From: Candidatus Melainabacteria bacterium
GTDB lineage: Bacteria > Cyanobacteriota > Vampirovibrionia > Obscuribacterales > Obscuribacteraceae
Length of the DNA: 64,000 nt
Assembly: GCA_003963305.1 (NCBI GenBank)
Contig: RXJR01000009.1
Span: 434,150 to 498,149, forward strand
Reading direction: 5' to 3'
Position 1 is the first letter of the stretch. Each line of letters opens with the position of its first letter. Both the position numbers and the translations under genes were made by a program. The notes under the pieces are model-generated. The model saw nothing but the letters and a program-made list of their open reading frames with translations, was not told the origin of the DNA and made no database searches. This document shows positions 13,801-17,684 of the stretch, piece by piece.

Positions 13801-15045
13801 TCAGGCCGACCTCACCAGGGTATTAGTGCTGAGTTCGTTAAGCTTGAATTCGCGGTGGAGCAGAGCGGCTGCATGATTTGCGGCGGCCGTCGGAATTAAA
13901 CAGGAGATGCGTGATTCTCCGCAATAGAGAAGTTTTACGTAAATGCTGTGATCTTCGAGCACGGAAAGTAGCTTGGTTGATGCTTCCTGCGAATTACCCA
14001 GCCCGGTCCCAATTATGCTCACTTTTGCCACTTCCTTATCAACAATCAGGTCGTTGGCGCCGCATGCTTGTTTGAGCTCCTGGAGAATCAAAATAGCCGA
14101 ATCCAGGTCTTCATACTTGATTGCTAAACTCAAGCACTTGGTGCGATTTGCAAAATCGATATTTTGCGAAACCATATCTACTGAGACATTTTGTTTACCC
14201 AAACAATCGAGCGTTGTGCCAATAAATGGGAAGTCGACTGGTACACCTGCGAAAGTTACATGGGCTTGATTTCCATCTACGGCAATGCCACTTACTTTGC
14301 GAATTCTTTCCACTTTGTTTTCTCCATTGATAATAGTGCCCTGGTGAGCAGGATTGAACGTATTCCGTACACGCACCTGTATGTTGTATTCCTTTGCTAG
14401 CTCAACCGCTCGAGGATGCAAAACTTGCGCTCCAACGCGTGCTAGTTCGAGAACTTCGTCATAACAGATTGTCGGGATGATTTGTGCTTCTGCAATTTTG
14501 TTTGGATCTGTTGTGAATATTCCGTCCACATCGGTATAGATGTCGCAGGTGGTGGCTCCGCAAGCTGCGGCGAGAGCGACTGCGGTGGTATCGGAGCCGC
14601 CTCGACCAAGGGTTGTAATTTCGCCCGATTCGCTCAATCCCTGGAAGCCTGCCACCACAACTACGTCATGGTCCTCCAGGGCTTTCTTGAGCGTATCTCG
14701 ACAAATATCGAGAATTCTTGCGGTGCTATGTGAATTATCGGTTGTTATGCCGATCTGTGACCCTGTGAAAGATTTGGCATTTATACCTTTCTCTTGCAGA
14801 GTCAAAGCCAACAAAGCGATAGATACCTGTTCTCCAGTTGATAGAAGCAGATCCAGTTCTCTCTTGTTTGGCACTGTAGCGCATTGTTTTGCCAGGCTGT
14901 AGAGATAGTCGGTGGTATCACCCATGGCTGATACCACGACCACACTCTTAGCGCTTCCGCACTTGGCCACAACGTCGGCTACATGATGAATTCGACTGAT
15001 GTTCTTCACCGAAGTGCCACCGAATTTAAGTACAGAGATGCTCAT
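13801..15045 (-). CDS. lysC: Aspartate kinase
   Basis: Phosphorylates aspartate, the first step to lysine, threonine and methionine. The 414 residues match the monofunctional form: kinase domain with KFGGTSV at the start, STGEQVSIALLA, and GRGGSDTTAVALAAA followed by YTDVDGIFTTDP. Two ACT domains follow (from ~265), including VDMVSQNI. The ATG has GAGGAAAT upstream. It sits 11 bp behind the cystathionine gamma-synthase/lyase gene on the minus strand, so the two should share the Met leader described below. This suggests the isozyme is tuned to methionine supply; feedback specificity cannot be read from sequence alone. Confidence 0.95.
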   Translation of the reverse strand: MSISVLKFGGTSVKNISRIHHVADVVAKCGSAKSVVVVSAMGDTTDYLYSLAKQCATVPNKRELDLLLSTGEQVSIALLALTLQEKGINAKSFTGSQIGITTDNSHSTARILDICRDTLKKALEDHDVVVVAGFQGLSESGEITTLGRGGSDTTAVALAAACGATTCDIYTDVDGIFTTDPNKIAEAQIIPTICYDEVLELARVGAQVLHPRAVELAKEYNIQVRVRNTFNPAHQGTIINGENKVERIRKVSGIAVDGNQAHVTFAGVPVDFPFIGTTLDCLGKQNVSVDMVSQNIDFANRTKCLSLAIKYEDLDSAILILQELKQACGANDLIVDKEVAKVSIIGTGLGNSQEASTKLLSVLEDHSIYVKLLYCGESRISCLIPTAAANHAAALLHREFKLNELSTNTLVRSA

Positions 15046-15056
15046 TTGTATTTCCT

Positions 15057-16274
15057 CTATACTGCGACAACTAGTTCTGGCGCCGACTTTACTGCTTCCG
15101 TCTTTGGAAGAACGCGCTCAAGGTCGGCAATCAAATCGGCAGCTTCTTCAATTCCGGTTGAAATTCTGATCAAACCGTCGACAATGCCGCAGTGCTCCCG
15201 AACTTCTTTCGGTATGGGTTTGTGCGTCATCGTAGCGGGGTGACAGATAAGTGATTTGACTCCACCCAGACTTTCCGCAAGTTGGAACAGCTTAGTGTTG
15301 TTGACGACATCTTTGGCCGCATCCAGTCCGCCTTTTACAACAAATGAGACCATTCCACCGAATCCAGACATTTGTGACTTAGCCAGGTCAAATTGAGGGT
15401 GACTTGGCAGTCCTGGGTAATGGACAGCTTCTACGGCAGGGTGCTTCTCCAGATATTCTGCAATAGCCCGAGCGTTACGCTCATGTTCTCTCATACGCAG
15501 AGCAAGCGTTTTCAACCCTCGTAGAATCAAAAAGCAGTCGAATGGACCAGGAACGGCGCCGACTGCATTATTGTGGAACTGCAATTGTTCGTAGAGCTTG
15601 TCGTCGGAAGTTACTATTGCGCCGCCGATTACGTCACTGTGTCCGTTCAAATACTTTGTTGTGCTGTGGACGACGATATCGGCGCCAAGAGCAAGAGGCT
15701 TCTGAAAGTATGGGGTGGCAAAGGTATTGTCAACAACTAGTATGAGTCCATTCTTTTTGGTGATTTTTGAAATGGCACGAAGATCAGCAAGGCGAAGAAG
15801 TGGATTTGTAGGCGTTTCGAGCCAGACAAGTTTAGTCTCCGGAGTGATAGCCTGCTCCACTTCGTGTGTGTTGCGGGCATTGACGTAGGTGAACTTCAAA
15901 TTGTATTTGGTCAGTACTTGCTCGAATAGTCTGTAGACACCACCATAGACATCTTCACCTACGATGACGTGGTCTCCTGCTTTGAGCAGGTTAGTGACTG
16001 TATATGCAGCTGCCAGTCCAGAGGCGCAAGCCAAGCCATATTTCCCACCTTCGAGAGCTGCCAGGCATTCCTCCAGGGCTGTACGGGTAGGATTATGTGT
16101 TCTCGCGTACTGATAGCCTTTGTTGACTCCCAGTTCATCAAGAACAAATGTCGCTGTCTGGAAAATTGGAGTTATTAGGGCGCCTGTGGATGGGTCGGCG
16201 TCCTGTCCAGCATGTATTGCCAGGGTGGAGAAGTGAAGTTGTTCGTCGGATGTACAGTTCTTATATTGGCTCAT
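15057..16274 (-). CDS. metB: Cystathionine gamma-synthase/lyase family PLP enzyme
   Basis: Cys/Met-metabolism PLP-enzyme family, 405 residues. TATFVLDELG and YQYARTHNPTRTALEECLAALEGG are at the N-terminus, ACASGLAA follows, and the PLP lysine lies in HSTTKYLNGHSD. GAVPGPFDCFLILRGLKTL and LAESLGGVKSL near the end are typical. Sequence alone does not separate gamma-synthase from gamma- or beta-lyase. The Met-leader control and the linked aspartokinase favour a biosynthetic role (gamma-synthase), hence the tentative symbol. AGGAGAT precedes the ATG, and the attenuator terminator ends just before this site. Confidence 0.88.
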   Translation of the reverse strand: MSQYKNCTSDEQLHFSTLAIHAGQDADPSTGALITPIFQTATFVLDELGVNKGYQYARTHNPTRTALEECLAALEGGKYGLACASGLAAAYTVTNLLKAGDHVIVGEDVYGGVYRLFEQVLTKYNLKFTYVNARNTHEVEQAITPETKLVWLETPTNPLLRLADLRAISKITKKNGLILVVDNTFATPYFQKPLALGADIVVHSTTKYLNGHSDVIGGAIVTSDDKLYEQLQFHNNAVGAVPGPFDCFLILRGLKTLALRMREHERNARAIAEYLEKHPAVEAVHYPGLPSHPQFDLAKSQMSGFGGMVSFVVKGGLDAAKDVVNNTKLFQLAESLGGVKSLICHPATMTHKPIPKEVREHCGIVDGLIRISTGIEEAADLIADLERVLPKTEAVKSAPELVVAV

Positions 16275-16293
16275 GGGGTTTATCTCCTAATTG

Positions 16294-16327
16294 AAAAACC
16301 CCCCTTCTCGCTCGGAGAAGGAGGGTT
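16294..16327 (-). terminator. Attenuator terminator of the met-lysC leader
   Basis: Read on the minus strand, a 13-bp stem (fwd 16297-16309 with 16315-16327, 5-nt loop) ends in five U residues. The only mismatch on the plus strand is a G-U pair on the minus-strand RNA, which supports leftward use. It lies between the leader peptide and the ribosome binding site of the gamma-synthase/lyase gene. Its 5' arm CCCUCC can instead pair with GGAGGG in the leader. Confidence 0.85.
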
Positions 16328-16350
16328 GAAACACTTTAACGGTCTGTTAG

Positions 16351-16440
16351 CTACTGCTTAAACCTGTGTGACAACGCCGCCCTCCCCGAGGAGAGCATCA
16401 ACATTGTCATAGTCATGGCGCGGTTTTGCATGTTGTCCAT
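16351..16440 (-). CDS. Met-rich leader peptide of the met-lysC operon
   Basis: A 29-codon ORF (MDNMQNRAMTMTMLML, then SSGRAALSHRFKQ) with six Met codons among its first 15, ending in TAG. Right after the Met cluster the RNA can form GCUCUCC-UCGG-GGAGGGC, a 7-bp hairpin. Its right arm can alternatively pair with the CCCUCC arm of the terminator downstream. This is the classic layout of ribosome-mediated attenuation: stalling on Met codons would block the first hairpin, free GGAGGG to hold CCCUCC, and prevent termination. If the promoter at 16439-16466 is right, translation may begin at the second ATG (codon 4), nearly leaderless. Confidence 0.8.
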   Translation of the reverse strand: MDNMQNRAMTMTMLMLSSGRAALSHRFKQ

Positions 16441-16466
16441 TATGAAGCAAAGGTTTCGTTTGTCAA
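16439..16466 (-). promoter_or_regulatory. Promoter of the met-lysC leader
   Basis: Minus-strand TTGACA (fwd 16461-16466), 16-bp spacer, then CATAAT (fwd 16439-16444). This is close to the sigma-70-type consensus and places the transcript start near 16432, at the beginning of the Met-rich peptide. Confidence 0.65.
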
Positions 16467-16703: not shown

Positions 16704-17684
16704 TTACGCGAATTTGCTTACCTGCACCATATGCGGTGAAACATAGGATGCGATTTCTCGTTCTGAGAGTTTGCCATACCTGGCACAAGCTTTCAACAAT
16801 GCCTCAGTGCTCCATCTTTTATCCACTACGCACCAAAACAGGGCTAAATAGAGTTGCAGATATTTTCTACTGACACCACCGTGGATTCTTTTGATGTATC
16901 GTGTGCTTCGGGCCACATAGCGAATAATGTTTTTATGCGGTTTTTTGATAGCAGGAAGTTTGACTGGTTGTTTGATCTTCACATACTGTGCACCGTTCTG
17001 ATTCTCTATTAAGCCGGCAAGTTCCAGCATTGTCAGCGCTGACATAATGCGATTGGTCGGCAGACCGCTTCGTACTTCAAGTGATGATTGCGTAATCGGC
17101 TGATCTGAAAAATTCTGATACACCAGTTTTTCGTCTTCACTGAGCGAATCAAGTAAGGCTTGATCTTGATTGAGCTGCGCAGCAAGCCGGCGTTCGATTT
17201 CATCAAATTCTGCGTGAGGATGCTCACGTGGCAGTGATTCAGTGCTGCGTCTGAAAACACAAGAACCGAATTCGGATGATTTCGTCGGTGAGCCATATCT
17301 CTCTAGCAACTCCAACAATACGGTCGATACCTTCTTCAGTATGTGCTGCGCTGAAGATGTTGATATGACCATCAGTCGTCCAAAGGCCGCACCACTTATC
17401 CTAATGCGATGAGAGAGAAGGATGATCGCCATTAAGTATGGTCTTGGCTTTTTGATAGAACTAAAGAATGTCTTTGCCGTTAGCCATGTCTTCCGATTAC
17501 ATTTGAGGCACCGAGCGTCTCTTCGTCCTACTTCGCGGAGCAGTCTGCGAGAGTTACAGTGAGTGCATTTTTCATCAATGTATTTTCTCAGTTCTTTCAG
17601 ACAATCTTCATTCGTAGGAAATTTTGCTAGATTTTCAGCTAGCAACATCCTAATGATTTTTAGGGCAGGATCAAGTGAGAGCAT
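16704..17684 (-). CDS. Transposase-derived protein: zinc ribbon, winged helix, IS1595-like C-terminus
   Basis: A 326-residue protein with a mixed architecture. Residues ~40-63 hold CTHCNSRRL and CLKCNRKTW, a zinc ribbon of the IS1595 transposase type, followed by KTFFSSIKKPRPYLMAIILL and a helix-turn-helix (SGAAFGRLMVISTSSAQHIL), also as in that family. Residues ~180-235 (LSEDEKLVYQNF, then SGLPTNRIMSALTMLELAGL) look like a DprA-type winged helix. The C-terminus (IKRIHGGVSRKYLQLYLALF) again resembles the end of IS1595 transposases. The DDE catalytic core is not recognisable and no inverted repeats flank the gene. I infer a domesticated DNA-binding protein. Confidence 0.6.
   Translation of the reverse strand: MLSLDPALKIIRMLLAENLAKFPTNEDCLKELRKYIDEKCTHCNSRRLLREVGRRDARCLKCNRKTWLTAKTFFSSIKKPRPYLMAIILLSHRIRISGAAFGRLMVISTSSAQHILKKVSTVLLELLERYGSPTKSSEFGSCVFRRSTESLPREHPHAEFDEIERRLAAQLNQDQALLDSLSEDEKLVYQNFSDQPITQSSLEVRSGLPTNRIMSALTMLELAGLIENQNGAQYVKIKQPVKLPAIKKPHKNIIRYVARSTRYIKRIHGGVSRKYLQLYLALFWCVVDKRWSTEALLKACARYGKLSEREIASYVSPHMVQVSKFA

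Follow-up and report, generated by a model that had tools for sequence, protein, structure and literature searches.

A predicted methionine leader-peptide attenuator upstream of metB-lysC in the Obscuribacteraceae

A short Met-rich ORF on the minus strand of a 64,000-nucleotide stretch of DNA (hereafter the window) from Candidatus Melainabacteria very probably switches on two methionine-pathway genes, metB and lysC, when charged Met-tRNA is short. Judged from the sequence of the window and its relatives, we consider it very likely that metB-lysC is controlled by a ribosome-mediated transcription attenuator that reads the charging of elongator tRNA-Met. A promoter-like site, an ORF with conserved Met codons, competing and covarying helices and linkage to the operon are directly visible in the DNA (Table 1); from these, we infer where the transcript begins, that the ORF is translated, that ribosomes stall and transcripts terminate there, and in which direction the leader responds. 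The family concerned is the Obscuribacteraceae (Obscuribacterales), which are non-photosynthetic relatives of the cyanobacteria.

Table 1. Features of the metB-lysC leader and operon in the window, and loci of the second leader set
Feature	Position	Strand	Basis or remark
-35 element TTGACA	16461..16466	(-)	sequence
-10 element CATAAT	16439..16444	(-)	start ATG 7 nt downstream
Leader peptide ORF, 26 codons, MQNRAMTMTMLMLSSGRAALSHRFKQ	16351..16431	(-)	Met cluster in frame with start in 24/24 leaders compared
Met-codon cluster (codons 6, 8, 10, 12), proposed sensor	16396..16416	(-)	
Segment 1, 5' side of 1:2 hairpin, overlaps last Met codons	16390..16409	(-)	
Segment 2, GGAGGGCGGCGTTGTCACACAGGT, partner of segment 1 or segment 3	16362..16385	(-)	
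Segment 3, GTGTTTCAACCCTCCTTCTC, partner of segment 2 (antiterminator) or segment 4 (terminator)	16315..16334	(-)	
Intrinsic terminator, segments 3:4, with U-run	16294..16327	(-)	kept in all relatives
Shine-Dalgarno AGGAG of metB, directly after terminator	16284..16288	(-)	sequence
metB-type gene	15057..16274	(-)	PRK07811 cystathionine gamma-synthase, over curated cut-off
lysC, aspartate kinase	13801..15045	(-)	scores over cut-offs; metB operon, 11-nt gap
Met-rich leader loci of family f5	L056-L060, L175-L178, L180-L182		

The first-pass annotation had proposed a minus-strand promoter (TTGACA, 16 bp, CATAAT), and this was borne out: the site at 16466-16439 (-) is strong and of the sigma-70 type, with 11/12 promoter matches. 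Among the 23 relatives whose loci were read, most have TTGAC[A/T] with the same 16-nt spacing, and the gap from [C/G]ATAAT to the ATG is 6-7 nt across the 23 loci, except for 3 nt in one. Because the ATG lies 6-7 nt past the -10 box, the leader mRNA is probably leaderless or nearly so. An ATG at 16440 was rejected as the leader start, since it is placed inside the -10 box, before the expected transcript start, and is out of frame, for example, in the relative L004; the next ATG, at 16431, is the start common to the relatives. The Met-rich leader ORF described initially is present, but its 29 codons and six Met did not stand, since the relatives' start gives 26 codons with M1 and four elongator Met codons. 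In 920 shuffled upstream regions, no short ORF reached the Met score seen here (5 Met in 13 codons), and ORFs with at least three Met occurred in 6.

The leader is conserved among relatives. A protein search of 99 relatives, after which the upstream regions were read, showed that the layout recurs in 23 of the 30 upstream loci. A covariance model of the leader was run over 382 genomes of the class and placed it in 25 genomes, one copy each, all in the family of Candidatus Obscuribacter; it precedes metB in 24 of these and lies directly before lysC alone in the other (G005). Identity to the window's leader is ~41-62% between genera. Across 24 leaders, the last position of the cluster is Met in all 24, the position two codons before it in 23 and that four codons before it in 20, so that the conservation of Met codons, on which refutation was to hinge, leaves the attenuator interpretation standing. 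Met residues are the most conserved of the leader peptide and other residues drift. The distance from start to cluster is 30, 33, 36, 39 or 45 nt, always in frame, and the number of elongator Met codons per leader is modest (3-6). Model matches outside the class (L197 and L199), and the low-scoring L179 and L183-L191, were rejected because each is either inside a coding sequence or an ordinary terminator. When the family was searched by pattern for additional Met leaders, the metB/lysC element and a single Cys/Met leader were the only convincing cases, and a Trp-leader pattern search gave no clear signal over background.

The leader is linked to one particular operon. Downstream of metB, lysC is found in 22 of the 23 leader loci, and the remaining locus stops at a contig edge; the seven leader-free loci form a separate metB group, and none has lysC after metB within the stretch read. 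The window's genome also carries a second metB-type paralogue (G000:C38:26078-27253, 65% identity). Paralogues of this second group in relatives are without the leader and, as read by eye, follow an apparent CBS-domain gene. On the other side of the leader, the gene at 16704-17684 (-) combines a zinc-ribbon-like start with a DprA winged-helix match; it looks transposase-like and is outside the metB-lysC operon.

The 1:2, 2:3 and 3:4 helices of the leader are mutually exclusive. Its fold has a z-score of -3.7, and equal stability was reached in 1/200 shuffles. The intrinsic terminator claimed directly before the ribosome site of the gene was found there, at 16327-16297, with a helix of 13 pairs and a U-run adjoining the metB ribosome site, and the noted complementarity of GGAGGG and CCCUCC was confirmed and belongs to a 2:3 antiterminator of greater length. 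In this antiterminator, 86% of cells were paired, compared with 80.7% after shuffling of columns (none of 500 shuffles reached the observed value) and 47-64% when the pairing was slid; nine pairs show double changes, among which are the four pairs that make up the distal helix. In an alignment-independent comparison of 11 clusters, the energies of the cognate 2:3 duplexes beat swapped ones in 20,000/20,000 permutations, and those of 3:4 did likewise, whereas for the control pairings 1:3 and 2:4 the observed value was reached in 616 and 4022 of the 20,000, respectively. The 1:2 hairpin does start at the last Met codon, but the 7 bp initially assigned to it became 8 bp; with its extension it reaches 17 pairs, Met codons among them. 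It is paired in most relatives (76.8% of cells; slid versions 40-63%), with weak covariation and a cognate permutation test that was not significant. The alternative pairing is conserved, in that 2:3 covaries and 3:4 is retained in all relatives. Together with the Met conservation, this supports the layout of ribosome-mediated attenuation recognised at first pass: an end-product codon cluster in a short ORF, and exclusive 2:3 and 3:4 helices with compensatory changes.

According to the proposed mechanism, RNA polymerase would initiate at or beside the leader AUG, and a ribosome would start translating the near-leaderless mRNA. When Met-tRNA is scarce, the ribosome would be stalled in the Met cluster and cover segment 1; segment 2 would then pair with segment 3, no terminator would form, and metB and lysC would be transcribed. 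When Met-tRNA is plentiful, the ribosome would reach the stop codon and cover segment 2, so that segment 3 would pair with segment 4 and transcription would stop before metB. With an assumed ribosome footprint, the codon cluster is placed such that stalling would mask segment 1, and a ribosome that has reached the stop codon would mask segment 2. The two states were modelled by folding and geometry with this footprint. When the ribosome's A site holds the last Met codon, segment 2 pairs with the terminator's 5' arm in 24/24 leaders (probability 0.56-1.0); for a ribosome placed on the stop codon this pairing is impossible, which is partly by construction. In an equilibrium model of the unfinished transcript without a ribosome, the 2:3 antiterminator is also favoured in most species, and default termination of an untranslated leader would therefore need 1:2 to form first (a kinetic effect). 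Further points against the attenuator are the weak covariation of 1:2, the modest number of Met codons and that Met starvation would slow initiation as well.

The Met codons and the terminator could also be read in other ways. Met genes are usually controlled by SAM riboswitches, and SAM-I riboswitches are present in sister families of the class, which would suit a metabolite-binding riboswitch (for SAM, Met or homocysteine) with the terminator as its expression platform and the ORF as incidental. However, an Rfam search of the leader gave no match, SAM riboswitches and the T-box RF00230 included, and for lack of a covariance-model match both were rejected as the identity of the leader. There was no SAM-I riboswitch (RF00162) in the listed genomes of the Obscuribacter family, and none of 117 genomes of the class carried a T-box. 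The leader has no conserved aptamer-like core, with ~41-62% identity between genera outside Met codons and helices, and the parts that are conserved are the frame and the Met codons; a riboswitch is extremely unlikely. Terminators and short ORFs often arise randomly (0.4 terminators per shuffled region), and a plain terminator with chance Met codons would imply no regulation at all; yet conservation of the leader in 25 genomes, covariation and operon linkage leave this practically no probability.

Two further explanations keep the ORF functional. TnaC is an arrest peptide that senses Trp and stalls the ribosome. A nascent Met-rich peptide that detects Met or SAM from within the exit tunnel would be in line with the short MxMxMP(S) motif in the leaders of many relatives, but across clusters conservation is limited to Met, flanking residues and lengths vary, and a codon run just ahead of helix 1 suits tRNA sensing. 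We regard an arrest-peptide attenuator as very unlikely. That almost every relative has its start ATG 6-7 nt past the -10 box would fit a leader that senses the rate of initiation on a leaderless mRNA, through availability of initiator fMet-tRNA or 70S ribosomes, instead of elongator Met-tRNA. Sensing of initiation leaves the conserved internal Met cluster without explanation, however, and the sister set in another family (below) has Shine-Dalgarno-like sequences and more Met codons, so that we give this explanation a very small, marginally lower probability.

An attenuator that reads elongator Met-tRNA would share with trpL, hisL, leuL, thrL, ilvL and pheL an ORF enriched for end-product codons, the 1:2, 2:3 and 3:4 helices and the terminator before the first gene; it would differ from them in its codon (Met), operon (metB-lysC) and lineage (Obscuribacterales). 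There were no reliable attenuation data in cyanobacteria as of 2016 (PMC4833913), and no Met leader attenuators were found in a survey of Actinobacteria (PMC1262725). The first-pass annotation knew of no well-described Met-peptide attenuator, and Met attenuation has so far indeed only been proposed, but Met leaders had been predicted earlier in Campylobacter jejuni and Streptomyces lividans. The C. jejuni MetL leader before metBA was predicted in 2013 as a peptide of 20 aa with three Met codons, on a short RNA ending behind the stop codon (PMC3847290). Its start was observed by Ribo-seq in 2025, and a further ORF, MMYQMR, precedes a Met transporter gene (PMC11955535). MetL resembles the leader described here as a predicted Met leader peptide before a metB-containing operon, a likeness of layout only; unlike it, MetL was found via a ribosome-site search and is limited to C. 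jejuni, C. coli and C. doylei (PMC3847290), and the passages on it describe no antiterminator covariation. For metL before metNIQ in S. lividans, a leaderless Met-sensing leader peptide was proposed (PMC8079986), which is like our case in both respects; its peptide, MSTTSDRTPATEATTTPGARCMCRRMCAF, differs in having two internal Met plus Thr and Cys, and it has no typical intrinsic terminator. Leaderless leader ORFs are shared by the trpL attenuator of Sinorhizobium meliloti, with Trp instead of Met (PMC7298713), and, reportedly, by mycobacterial poly-Cys ORFs, with Cys instead of Met (cited in PMC13236596).

Weak matches of the leader model in a second family of the class (f5) turned out to be a genuine pattern of twelve leaders, such as MKNNATMMMQMMMMQSLSKGGFCCVDRMC and MQNTNTMMMQMMMQSLIKGGICLANRMC. 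These leaders are very Met-rich (MMMQMMM), most have a Shine-Dalgarno-like sequence, and they are followed by a terminator and then by one uncharacterised protein of about 430-460 aa. Competing pairing is present in most of them, and cognate 2:3 pairing beats all 20,000 permutations in this set of closer relatives. Neither Pfam nor NCBIfam gave a notable match for the protein, there were no Met genes among the neighbours examined, and its structure model is helical and of low confidence (mean pLDDT 63), insufficient for a structural search. We see an even chance that Met-sensing leader attenuation is ancestral or recurrent in the class, with a leaderless form in the Obscuribacteraceae and the f5 form (e.g. 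MKNNATMMMQMMMMQSL). Separately, a near-leaderless ORF, MQNQRQSICMCMCMNCRKSRRVCHCACMC, with hairpins and a terminator, lies at L192:300-523 (G009:C60:18612 onward) before a cysD-like gene, recognised by eye from its SGGKDS motif. The MQNQRQSICMCMCMNCRKSRRVCHCACMC leader is a predicted Cys/Met sister attenuator; no Cys leader was found before the cysD homologues of other relatives.

Met doubles as the start amino acid, and for this reason it has so far been doubtful whether elongator Met-tRNA can act as an attenuation signal. What is new is the lineage, metB-lysC as the target, a form that is probably leaderless and comparative support of this depth; priority is uncertain, as subscription journals lay mostly outside our literature search. 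In the literature accessible to us, no other Met attenuator has comparative support as good as that for the predicted leader. The f5 leaders point to the uncharacterised protein behind them as a candidate, which, if the prediction is true, would be a new methionine-responsive protein. A Met attenuator in a lineage whose listed genomes are without SAM-I riboswitches or T-boxes would make the question of elongator Met-tRNA directly testable.
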